Below are positions 32,663 through 60,069 of a stretch of 64,000 bases of DNA, one piece after another; position 1 is the first letter of the stretch, and every line of letters starts with the position of its first letter. The translations under genes and the position numbers were made by a program. The notes beneath the pieces were generated by a model. That model was not told the DNA's origin. It worked only from the letters and a program-made list of their open reading frames with translations, and did no database searches. The DNA is from Tatumella sp. JGM118 (GTDB lineage Bacteria > Pseudomonadota > Gammaproteobacteria > Enterobacterales > Enterobacteriaceae), in the NCBI RefSeq assembly GCF_018257515.1, contig NZ_JAERJR010000001.1, forward strand, positions 372,001-436,000, in the 5' to 3' direction.

Positions 32663-33095
32663 GGGGCAGGAGAGATTTTTCTTCTGAGTGAACAGGCAGG
32701 GAACTGAGGTTTTGCAGGATCAGAGGGGTGAATATCCCACTTTTCCGCAGGTTTTTGATACCAGGCTGCTGAGTTTTCTGTTTGTGGTTTATTCGGTTTA
32801 TCCTGGTGAATATTCCGTTCGCTGCATTGTCAGCCATACCGCCTTTGCCCCGATGTGGCCGACCGGGAAAAGGGCGCCTGGCCGTATTCTCTGCACGCTC
32901 CGCTTTGCAATAAGCCAGCCCTTCGCTGCGTGGTACCTTTTCCCACTCAATGGCGTCATGTCGCCCTTAACGCGGTGCTGAAATCAGGTAAGAAGCAAAC
33001 ATTAATATTGTTATGAAAAGCAGGAACAGATGCGGGTTCCGGGAAGTAAGGTTTCTGCATGCTATCTCCTATTCAAAAACACAGAGATGGCCGGA
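32663..33095. other. Intergenic spacer before the tRNA-distal repeats
   Basis: No gene supported. A short open frame around 32688-32981 has no recognisable motif or ribosome-binding site. Confidence 0.4.
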
Positions 33096-33230
33096 TAGCG
33101 ATGAGGGAGGGATGCACTCGCTGCACTGCAGCTAGCCCTTCGGGGGGCCGGAGGCCCTGCAAAACGCGGCAGGTTTTGTCGAACCCTGCGAGGGTTCTCA
33201 CCCTCCCGGGAGAGTGCCTGCTGACAGGCA

Positions 33231-33259
33231 ATAAAAAAGCCTGAACTTTCGTTCAGGCT
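33231..33259 (-). terminator. Terminator in distal repeat unit
   Basis: Minus strand: GCCTGAAC-GAAA-GTTCAGGC then TTTTTT. Second, distal copy. Confidence 0.9.
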
Positions 33260-33408
33260 CTCTTAAAAAATGATGGCGGTGAGGGAGGGATGCACTCGCT
33301 GCGCTGCAGCTCGCCCTTCGGGGGGCCGGAGGCCCTGCAAAACCCGTCAGGTTTTGTCGAACCCTGCGAGGGTTCTCACCCTCCCGGGAGAATACCTGCT
33401 GACAGGCA

Positions 33409-33437
33409 ATAAAAAAGCCTGAACTTTCGTTCAGGCT
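33409..33437 (-). terminator. Terminator directly after tRNA-Ser
   Basis: Minus strand: GCCTGAAC-GAAA-GTTCAGGC then TTTTTT, 14 nt past the CCA end; first copy of the repeated terminator. Confidence 0.92.
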
Positions 33438-33451
33438 CTCTTAAAGAATGA

Positions 33452-33539
33452 TGGCGGTGAGGGAGGGATTCGAACCCTCGATACGTTGCCGTATACACAC
33501 TTTCCAGGCGTGCTCCTTCAGCCACTCGGACACCTCACC
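33452..33539 (-). tRNA. tRNA-Ser (anticodon GGA)
   Basis: 88 nt on the minus strand, from GGTGAGGTG to encoded CCA. Long variable arm typical of class II tRNA-Ser, T-loop GGTTCGAATC, D-arm GAGTGGCTGAAGG, and anticodon loop with GGA (reads UCC/UCU). It corresponds to serW/serX of E. coli. Confidence 0.97.
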
Positions 33540-39596: not shown

Positions 39597-40972
39597 AGCA
39601 GAATGAATCCAGGATCGTGGTTGTCAGGAAAAAACGATCCTCAGCTCACCAGGAAGAACATGGTTCCTGGAAGATTGCCTATGCGGATTTCATGACAGCG
39701 ATGATGGCTTTCTTTCTGGTGATGTGGCTGATTTCTATCTCCACGCCGAAAGAATTAGAGAAGATCGCGGAATATTTCCGCATGCCCCTCCGCGTCGCTT
39801 TATCGGGCGGTCAGCGCAGCAGCGACAGTGAAAGTCCGGTGCCCGGGGGCGGGCAGGATGTTACGCGTAAGAAAGGCGAGGTCGATAAAACAGACGCAGC
39901 GAGAAGCCGCGTACGCCGTGCTGAGGATCGACCGTTAAAGAAACTGAAACAGCGGCTGGAAACTTTATTGCTCTCTGACCCGCGACTCAAAGAGTTACGA
40001 CCGCATTTACTGATCACCATGGCCAGCCAGGGGCTACGGGTACAGATTATCGATAGCCAGCAACGGCCTATGTTTCGTCGTGGCAGTGCCGAAGTTGAGC
40101 CTTATATGCGCACCATTCTCCGGGCGATAGCGCCCATACTGAACGATGTACCGAACAAAATCAGTATTGCCGGGCATACAGATGATTATCAGTATCAGGG
40201 CGGTGATAAAGGCTTCAGTAACTGGGAACTCTCAGCCGACAGAGCGAATGCTTCACGTCGTGAACTGGTCCGGGGTGGGCTTAACAGCGGTAAAGTGCTC
40301 AGAGTGCTGGGGATGGCGGACACCATGAAACTGAGTCACCGGCAGGGTGACGAGGCCCAGAACCGGCGAATTAGTCTTCTGGTTTTAAACCTGCAGGCTG
40401 AACATGCAATTGAAGCAGAAAACAGAGAGGGGCAGGGAATCACACTTTCTGACCCTGCTGAACTTCATTTATCTTCGAAAACTGAGAGTGCTACCGCACC
40501 GGCGACCGGTGGGCTGCCGGGATCGGTAACCTCCCCGTCAGTCGTGAGCCCGGGTGCATCGCCGGGATCCGTATCGACCCCGTCAGTCCCGGCCGCGGTT
40601 GCATCGCCGGGATCGGTATCGACCCCGTCAGTCCCGGCCCCGGGTGCACCACCGGGACCGGTATCGACCCCGCCGGTTCCGGCCCCCGTTGCATCGCCGG
40701 GATCCGTAGCGCACCCGTCAGTCGTGGCCACGGATGCGTCACCCGGGTCAGTAGCGACCCCGCCACTTTCCGCGTCAGGAGAACGGGCTGACCCGGCGGC
40801 GGCACAAGCGGTATCTGCAGCCTCCCCGAACGGTTCGCCAGTGTCGGTTACGGCGGAGATGCCCCCCGCCGGAGGGGAGAAGCGCCCTCCGGCGAGCGCT
40901 CTTCCGGCTGAGAATCAACGGCAGAGTCCGGCGTCGTCCCCTGCCACCCTCCCTATTGCGCCACAGAGGTAG
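39593..40972 (+). CDS. motB: Flagellar motor stator protein MotB with extended repeat tail
   Basis: 459 residues, about 150 more than E. coli MotB (308). Single membrane helix about 28-50 ([19 protein letters not shown]) with the proton-accepting Asp; plug region; OmpA-like peptidoglycan-binding domain about 150-265 ([32 protein letters not shown]). After residue about 290 comes an Ala/Pro/Ser/Gly/Val-rich tail with a 15-residue repeat encoded by a 45-bp minisatellite (40511-40765). The core appears intact and functional; the tail is expected in the periplasm. Confidence 0.93.
40511..40765 (+). repeat. 45-bp coding minisatellite in motB
   Basis: Units start at 40511, 40556, 40601, 40646, 40691 and 40736 (last partial). 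Each encodes about 15 residues of the form [15 protein letters not shown]. Copies are diverged by several bases but keep phase, so copy-number changes would not shift the frame. Confidence 0.9.
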
Positions 40973-48368: not shown

Positions 48369-48929
48369 AACACCCCCATCGGTGTCGCACGACTGACAAT
48401 CTTTGCCTCACTCTGATCCGGTGCGGACAGTGTTGTTTGCACCGGTTTATTCCCGGTCAGTGGCCGGGGAGGATTCCGGCGTTCCAGGGCGCTTACTTTA
48501 TTCCGCTGCTGAAAAGGGTACGGCTGAAGTTTTGTCACGTGCGCGTGGGCTTTACAGGGCAGAGGCCAGGGGAGGATCCCGGCGTTCTAAGGCGCTTAAA
48601 TTATTTCGTTGCAGAAAAGGGTACGGCTGAAGTTTTGTCACGTGCGCGGTTGTGCTTCCGGGCCAGAGCCCGGAGGGTTTCCACACGACGATCCCGCCGC
48701 AACCTGCCGGGGTTCCTCTGATGGATCCCCGCCGCGGCATTACCCGCGCCATTCACAGAATGGCGCGGGTAACCGGAAAGCTTTTACAGGGTGTGGCTAT
48801 TCAGTGTTCTTCGCTTGTGCGCCGTACGGGCTTATCCCGGAAATAACCCCAGGCTTTGCTGACTGAAGGACCGATAACCGGGCCTGTTCTCTGGCATGCT
48901 GGTCTTTTAGTGACGGAACCGATAATACC
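48369..48929. other. Spacer cheZ-flhB with diverged tandem repeat
   Basis: No gene. The first half is occupied by the about 103-bp repeat (48458-48660). The rest (to 48929) contains nothing I recognise beyond the expected flhB promoter region. Confidence 0.6.
48458..48660. repeat. About 103-bp tandem repeat, two copies plus partial ends
   Basis: Copy A starts at 48458 (CAGTGGCCGGGGAGGAT), copy B at 48560 (CAGAGGCCAGGGGAGGAT). They share a perfectly identical 35-bp core beginning GAAAAGGGTACGGCTGAAG (48511 and 48614). A diverged fragment continues after 48660 (CAGAGCCCGGAGGG). The start of each copy is palindromic (GCCGG...CCGGC). Confidence 0.85.
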
Positions 48930-56321: not shown

Positions 56322-56415
56322 TATTACTCCTCCCGTTTACAGGACGGCTAAACGTTATTCCTCGCATCAATATCACACTGTAACAATCAGCCCGAACTTT
56401 TATAAGGAGAATGTC

Positions 56416-57156
56416 ATGGCTACGCTGGAAATCTGTTGCTACGGTGCGGAGTGTGCCCTGAATGCTGAGCAGGCTGGCGCTGATCGTATCGAGTTATGTG
56501 CAGCCCCGCCGGAGGGGGGCCTCACGCCCTCCTATGGCCTTCTGCAGACGGTCATTTCTCAGGTGACCCTCCCGGTACACCCTATCATCCGCCCGCGGGG
56601 GGGCGATTTTTGTTACAGCGAAACGGAGTTCCGCGTGATGAAAGCAGATATCGCACTGGTGCGTGAAATGGGGTTCCCGGGGTTGGTGATCGGTCTGCTC
56701 GATGCCGGCGCGCATATCGACCTGCAACGGATGGAAGAGGTAATGACTCTTTGCGACGGGATTTCGGTCACGTTCCACCGGGCTTTTGACCTCTGTCATA
56801 ACCCTTACCGCGCACTGGAAGAGTTGTCCGGGCTGGGTGTGGACCGGATACTGACCTCCGGGCAGCAGGAGTGTGCCGAAAACGGGCTGGTGCTGTTAAC
56901 CGCGCTGAACCAGCGGAGTCAGGCCATGGGCGGACCGGTGATTATGGCCGGTGCCGGCGTCAGGCTCAGTAACCTGCAACGGTTTGTGGATGCCGGACTG
57001 ACCGAAGTTCACAGTTCAGCCGGGAAACCGGTCAGTTCACCGATGCATTATCGTAAAGCGGGGGTCAGCATGAGTGCCCTCGGGCCGGCCGATGAATTTA
57101 CCCGCTATGTCGTTGATGAAGAGATGGTGTCGGCGATGAAGAGTATGCTGCAGTAA
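56416..57156 (+). CDS. cutC: CutC family protein
   Basis: 246 residues from ATG 56416, with AAGGAG upstream (56405-56410). TIM barrel with [45 protein letters not shown] and FHRAFDLC. CutC is named for copper tolerance in E. coli, but a direct copper role is disputed. Normal length. Confidence 0.95.
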
Positions 57157-57461
57157 AGCTGTCTCCGGCCATCGAGCGGCGGGTTGCCGGCGATGGCGGT
57201 TTACCTGAATGTAATCCTTCACTGATCTGCTGGCGACAGGCTATCAGCAAAGACAGTCTGACCGTTCTGCCGACGGTGGTAAAAGCGCGGGCAGGCGGAA
57301 TATTCCTCAGTATTATTAGTGACAGCGTCACTTATCATCATACAGAACCAACGGATTGGCCGCACAGGTGCAACGGGTCTGTGTAAAGCACTCACGGTAT
57401 GGCTGGCTGTTGTCCGGGGGCGTTTTTCGGTTGACCGACTGCAGCAGAGCCGGTTCACTGC

Positions 57462-57589
57462 CTGACATTCTGACATTCTGACATTCTGACATTCTGACAT
57501 TCTGACATTCTGACATTCTGACATTCTGACATTCTGACACTCCGACACTCCGACACTCCGGCACTCTGGCACTCTGGCACTCTGGCACT
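57462..57589. repeat. Octamer array A: 16 units with graded variants
   Basis: Nine CTGACATT (57462-57533), one CTGACACT, two CCGACACT, one CCGGCACT and three CTGGCACT, all in 8-bp phase. The variant order is a stepwise gradient, suggesting growth by local slippage or unequal exchange. Confidence 0.95.
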
Positions 57590-57672
57590 CACGCAGAGAT
57601 GCCGTGCAAAGTATTCACGGTAGTGATTAAGGGGCGTCCGGAGGTGTTCGCCGTTGACAGTGTACAGCAGTG

Positions 57673-57744
57673 CTGACTCCCTGACTCCCTGATTCCCTGA
57701 TTCCCTGATTCCCTGATTCCCTGATTCCCTGACTCCCTGACTCT
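57673..57744. repeat. Octamer array B: 9 units of CTGA(T/C)TCC
   Basis: Two CTGACTCC, five CTGATTCC, one CTGACTCC and a last CTGACTCT, in 8-bp phase. Confidence 0.95.
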
Positions 57745-57844
57745 CTTCCGGGGCAGACGCGGGTATGCCATGCGGGCCATTGACGTGCGTGGTTGATTTT
57801 CGTCCGGAAATATTTACCGTTGACAGGGTTCTGGCAGAGCAGAT

Positions 57845-57948
57845 TTGCTGTCTTACAGTCTTACAGTCTTACAGTCTTACAGTCTTACAGTCTTACAGTC
57901 TTACAGTCTTACAGTCTTACGGTCTTGCTGTCTTGCTGTCTTATCGTC
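57845..57948. repeat. Octamer array C: 13 units, core TTACAGTC
   Basis: TTGCTGTC, eight TTACAGTC, TTACGGTC, two TTGCTGTC and TTATCGTC, all in 8-bp phase. Confidence 0.95.
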
Positions 57949-58300
57949 TCACGCTCTGCTGTGGTGTATCCCGCGGGTGATAGCATTAAAGGGGATGGCT
58001 GTCATCCGGCAGGCCTCTCCCCGCAGTATGGGCGGAATAACGCTGCAAGGCGGATATTGTGACGACAGAGTGAGAAGAGGTCGGGGTGGTAGTGACGTTG
58101 TCACTTTATTGGCCGGTGTCACGCACAAAGAATGGAGGCACCGTGATTGCCGAGAGACGGGAGGGTGAGCGCGGGCCACGAAAGTTCGACCGGGGTTTGT
58201 ACCGATACGTCCGGAAACTGCCCGGGTAACAGCCTGACGAACGACGGGTCACCTCACCGGCAACCCGTCCGGAGCCGCCAGACGGGCTCCGTTAACAGTA

Positions 58301-60069
<1,769 letters not shown>

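Follow-up and report, generated by a model that had tools for sequence, protein, structure and literature searches.

The spacer between cutC and cmoB in Tatumella sp. JGM118 harbors a nested tandem repeat, in which three octamer arrays of 16, 9, and 13 units are each preceded by a diverged copy of an approximately 85-bp leader. The leaders are homologous, the sister species carries a single array-free copy, four other Tatumella species have none, and short arrays as well as larger tandem duplications occur across the JGM118 genome. We consider it likely that this nested repeat in noncoding DNA arose by local duplication of an ancestral spacer combined with slipped-strand expansion, and that its growth was largely neutral.

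Three octamer arrays in the cutC-cmoB spacer

Within the window (the whole stretch of 64,000 nucleotides that was analyzed), positions 57157 to 58300 separate two convergent genes whose 3' ends both face the spacer. The left neighbor, cutC (56404 to 57156, plus strand), is an open reading frame (ORF) that reads towards the arrays and matches Pfam CutC (E = 2.8e-72). The right neighbor (58301 to 59269, minus strand) is an ORF matching Pfam Methyltransf_9 (DUF1698; E = 4.5e-161), which we take to be cmoB from the established gene order beside cmoA. A plasmid search with the cutC-cmoB region gave no match.

The preliminary description had reported three arrays with an 8-bp phase, and all three were found, on the plus strand, at 57462 to 57589 (array A), 57673 to 57744 (array B), and 57852 to 57955 (array C). 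Array A consists of nine copies of CTGACATT followed by CTGACACT, two CCGACACT, CCGGCACT, and three CTGGCACT. Array B reads two CTGACTCC, five CTGATTCC, one CTGACTCC, and CTGACTCT, and array C starts with eight CTTACAGT followed by CTTACGGT, two CTTGCTGT, CTTATCGT, and CTCACGCT. The ordered variants described at one end thus hold for array A, and array C is polar as well, but array B differs in that it varies at both ends. The blocks of identical variants in array A would be the trace expected from repeated copying of mutated units. That each array has a different unit was likewise correct for the main units, those of arrays B and C having just 4 of 8 positions in common. The difference is nevertheless not complete: counted in register from the leader, the A and C units are identical at 6 of 8 positions (a level reached in 1.1% of fixed-register comparisons between unrelated array units), and variants of A and B reach up to 7 of 8. 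Since variants and register were picked post hoc, this in-register likeness of the units is only suggestive of a relationship between the arrays.

Two palindromes lie in the same spacer, AGTGACAGCGTCACT (palindrome 1, 57318 to 57332), located 58 bp before leader A, and AGTGACGTTGTCACT (palindrome 2, 58091 to 58105). The palindrome AGTGACRNYGTCACT is present in merely 2 to 4 copies per Tatumella genome, and two of the three JGM118 copies are these two, which flank the locus; it is possibly a regulator binding site.

The leaders derive from a spacer that is single in T. ptyseos

To evaluate the leaders (A, 57375 to 57461; B, 57585 to 57672; C, 57765 to 57849; all plus strand), leave-one-out profiles were built from the other three sequences of a set comprising leaders A, B, and C and the copy from T. 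ptyseos, and were run with nhmmer over approximately 2 Mb. Each left-out leader was recovered at its own position, with E values of 0.0057 for A, 1.8e-11 for B, 1.2e-4 for C, and 9.7e-8 for T. ptyseos, which bears out the relatedness proposed in the preliminary description. In pairwise tests, which carry less weight, shuffled sequences scored as high as the A-B pair in 2 of 1,000 cases and as high as the B-C pair in 1 of 1,000; the A-C pair alone was not significant. The four aligned sequences share 27 invariant columns. A fourth full leader after palindrome 2 was unsupported (441/500 shuffles).

Among named relatives, T. ptyseos ATCC 33301 is the closest by its CutC protein (90%). Its cutC-cmoB spacer measures 253 bp and contains one palindrome and one leader, and the octamer array is absent from it. 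Palindrome and leader align collinearly with their JGM118 counterparts, palindrome 1 and leader A, at an identical spacing of 58 bp (0/500 shuffles), and leader B also aligned with the T. ptyseos sequence better than any shuffle (0/500). Directly after the T. ptyseos leader stands CTCACGGT, a 7/8 match to an array C variant. In four other Tatumella, the spacer is only 24 to 43 bp long. Furthermore, the sequence around palindrome 2 can be aligned, as a partial further copy, to that end of the T. ptyseos spacer where its palindrome lies, which indicates that the spacer was copied several times in the JGM118 lineage. The leader is hence duplicated, as had been suggested: there are three tandem copies of an ancestral, locus-specific spacer that is single in T. 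ptyseos.

Mobility and phase variation are poor explanations of the locus

The same preliminary description had raised a mobile leader that seeds arrays, and this idea was not supported by whole-genome profile searches, which gave no family beyond the locus and one weak core-motif match. Across six whole Tatumella genomes, the profile recovered leaders A, B, and C, their T. ptyseos counterpart, and a single further weak match in JGM118 (E = 0.0055), followed by values near 0.02 to 0.05 in several of the six genomes. That match (C41:168262-168305) agrees with leader C in 28 of 33 columns and is separated by 54 bp from a heptamer array (CCAATAA, 11.6 copies; L178:8106-8308) inside a locally duplicated stretch, of which the T. 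ptyseos orthologue is a single copy without an array. Its position next to an array is suggestive of a small interspersed element that promotes short arrays beside itself, and it is the sole other notable profile match in JGM118. However, the match is weak by models that exclude it (E = 0.0055 genome-wide and 0.002 to 0.5 in leave-one-out searches), the motif has its array on the other flank than in the cutC-cmoB modules, and most JGM118 arrays have no such leader as a neighbor. No third locus was found in the six genomes even by the R2 model, which was trained including the C41 sequence and therefore matches it by construction. Additionally, an all-against-all comparison of the flanks of other JGM118 arrays revealed nothing common beyond background except C41 and the overlapping flanks of neighboring arrays, and a self-comparison of 1.25 Mb of JGM118 sequence contained no dispersed family that includes the leader. 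We therefore regard a mobile leader as improbable.

Even less probable, and in our judgment very much so, is that the arrays are contingency loci whose unit number alters the expression of cutC or cmoB. Changes in octamer number do alter spacing and frame, and known contingency loci are established to use short repeats (PMC4692102). Against this, the arrays sit between two converging 3' ends, downstream of both genes, and no promoter-like or terminator-like site was found in the spacer, so that the phase-variable element envisaged earlier is unlikely; as far as the sequence can tell, the repeats are in neither a coding start nor a promoter. ORFs crossing the arrays matched no protein family in Pfam, the spacer contained no Rfam family (a chance snoRNA match only), and it is missing in four congeners. 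Taken together, the lack of such sites and families and the absence from relatives would argue for a passive spacer.

Short arrays and larger duplications are frequent in JGM118

In 1.23 Mb of JGM118 sequence, arrays of three or more exact copies numbered 5, 9, 24, and 3 for periods 6, 7, 8, and 9, respectively, and there were none of period 5 or 10 to 15. Period 4 showed weakly, and shuffled sequence contained no such arrays with a period of 5 or more. Based on samples of up to 1.25 Mb for JGM118, which do not cover the same orthologous regions as those of T. ptyseos, arrays of period 6 to 9 occur at about 20 to 33 per Mb in JGM118 versus about 7 to 12 per Mb in T. ptyseos (23 versus 6.6 per Mb in one rate set), and none were found in 670 kb of four other Tatumella species. 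Tandem duplications of longer period are likewise enriched roughly six- to eightfold in JGM118 relative to T. ptyseos, with 15 versus 2.6 per Mb for periods of 31 to 99 and 21.5 versus 2.6 per Mb for periods of at least 100; the samples of the four other species are too small for such a rate. In the window itself, tandem duplications with units of 178, 103, and 45/90 bp at 33094 to 33469, 48458 to 48648, and 40516 to 40765, respectively, are part of this raised local duplication.

Nearly all arrays of period 6 to 9 are intergenic. Those of 7 to 9 bp lie outside long ORFs, a few crossing ORFs of 102 to 131 codons that are probably not genes, and two hexamer arrays fall within ORFs that are 718 and 1262 codons long. 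Four JGM118 contigs (C1, C3, C13, and C16) end inside 6- to 9-bp arrays, and an N run lies inside an array near L080:7221-7345; these arrays interrupted the assembly, and their copy numbers in it may thus be too low. At L080:7023-7450, the related octamer arrays TTTAATCC, ATCTTTTT, TTTATCTG, and TCTGTTTG grade into each other and clearly illustrate how units turn over. Comparison of orthologous sites revealed GCATTCCC in 6.4 copies in T. ptyseos versus about 2.4 in JGM118, and CCAATAA in 11.6 copies in JGM118 where T. ptyseos has two copies of GGCCAAC. A two-copy seed in one species and a long array in the other are what slippage acting on short, accidental duplications would be expected to produce.

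Loss of mismatch repair or nuclease function was rejected for MutS, SbcC, and RecJ, all three of which JGM118 encodes in intact form.

Origin of the nested repeat

In our proposed scenario, the spacer of the ancestor shared with T. ptyseos would have grown to a short sequence made of the palindrome, about 58 bp, and the leader. In the lineage of the window, this sequence of approximately 100 bp would then have been tandemly copied, giving three leader copies and a partial one, and the octamer adjoining each leader would have expanded by slipped-strand mispairing. Repeated copying of mutated units may finally have homogenized each array to its own unit, leaving older variants at the array ends. 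That slippage was the mechanism, that the events took this order, that the three octamers share one ancestor, and that the growth was nearly neutral are presumed here.

One difficulty with duplication plus slippage is that an array after all three leaders requires either a proto-array before the triplication or a repeated preference. A variant of this scenario, in which the three arrays arose independently from different local sequence once the leader had been triplicated, would agree with the low similarity of the B and C units and with the ability of the JGM118 genome to form leaderless arrays with a wide variety of units. It nevertheless seems somewhat unlikely to us, given that all three arrays start at the same position relative to their leader, have the same 8-bp period, and contain variants that resemble each other in register. 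Duplication plus slippage also leaves the confinement of the period to 6 to 9 without explanation. Units of 6 to 9 nucleotides exceed the loops that mismatch repair (MutS) corrects efficiently, in keeping with period 5 being absent and period 4 poorly represented among the arrays. A broader proposal is that replication or repair has been heritably altered in JGM118 and, to a lesser extent, in T. ptyseos, such that 6- to 9-bp (mostly 8-bp) intergenic arrays and larger tandem duplications are generated and maintained, with dozens of unrelated loci expanding simultaneously and the cutC-cmoB locus being one product; we put this forward as a tentative idea that is, on balance, unlikely.

Relation to known repeats and significance

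The preliminary description named REP, ERIC, and CRISPR as known elements that lack this form, and for these it was right. REP, ERIC, and MITE elements are scattered in numerous copies that typically contain inverted repeats, and the leader occurs at the cutC-cmoB locus and in one weak match; CRISPRs have longer repeats and unique spacers, and the units here are contiguous octamers without spacers. The arrays do, however, belong to the simple sequence repeats (SSR/VNTR): a unit of 1 to 9 nucleotides is repeated head to tail, exactly or almost so, and their copy number differs between related genomes, in this case between species (0 in T. ptyseos at this locus). We thus classify the locus as a new one of a known kind. 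Bacterial SSRs of 6 to 9 nucleotides are known yet little studied; Xanthomonas and Nostoc show an enrichment of GGGNATC heptamers (PMC4692102), and 8-bp SSR markers are used in Xylella fastidiosa (PMC7331650). The JGM118 arrays resemble these in their short head-to-tail units, mostly intergenic location, variable numbers, and genome-wide spread. Unlike them, the unit differs at every locus, octamers predominate, the repeats are not of the G-quadruplex type, and the cutC-cmoB locus has three arrays nested in a larger tandem repeat. The latter is reminiscent of composite minisatellite-type duplications (a unit of about 100 bp, in tandem, at one locus, with diverged copies), except that every unit here has a microsatellite of its own, which differs in sequence from the others.

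An 8-bp unit, reportedly ATTACAGA, is also found on the Erwinia amylovora plasmid pEA29. As described in a secondary source, this variable short-sequence repeat (Kim and Geider 1999, cited in PMC3409226) is similar in its unit length, its occurrence in a related bacterium, and its copy number varying between strains, and differs in being a single plasmid locus with no nested leader. Judged by title and abstract, none of the literature naming both Tatumella and tandem repeat was about Tatumella repeats.

The cutC-cmoB locus itself represents ordinary repeat growth in spacer DNA, and the clade-wide burst is of more interest. Close relatives with 0, about 7 to 12, and about 20 to 33 arrays per Mb, together with orthologous two-copy seeds, would make the birth of microsatellites with 7- to 9-bp units amenable to study in a bacterium, and would provide strain-typing markers for Tatumella.
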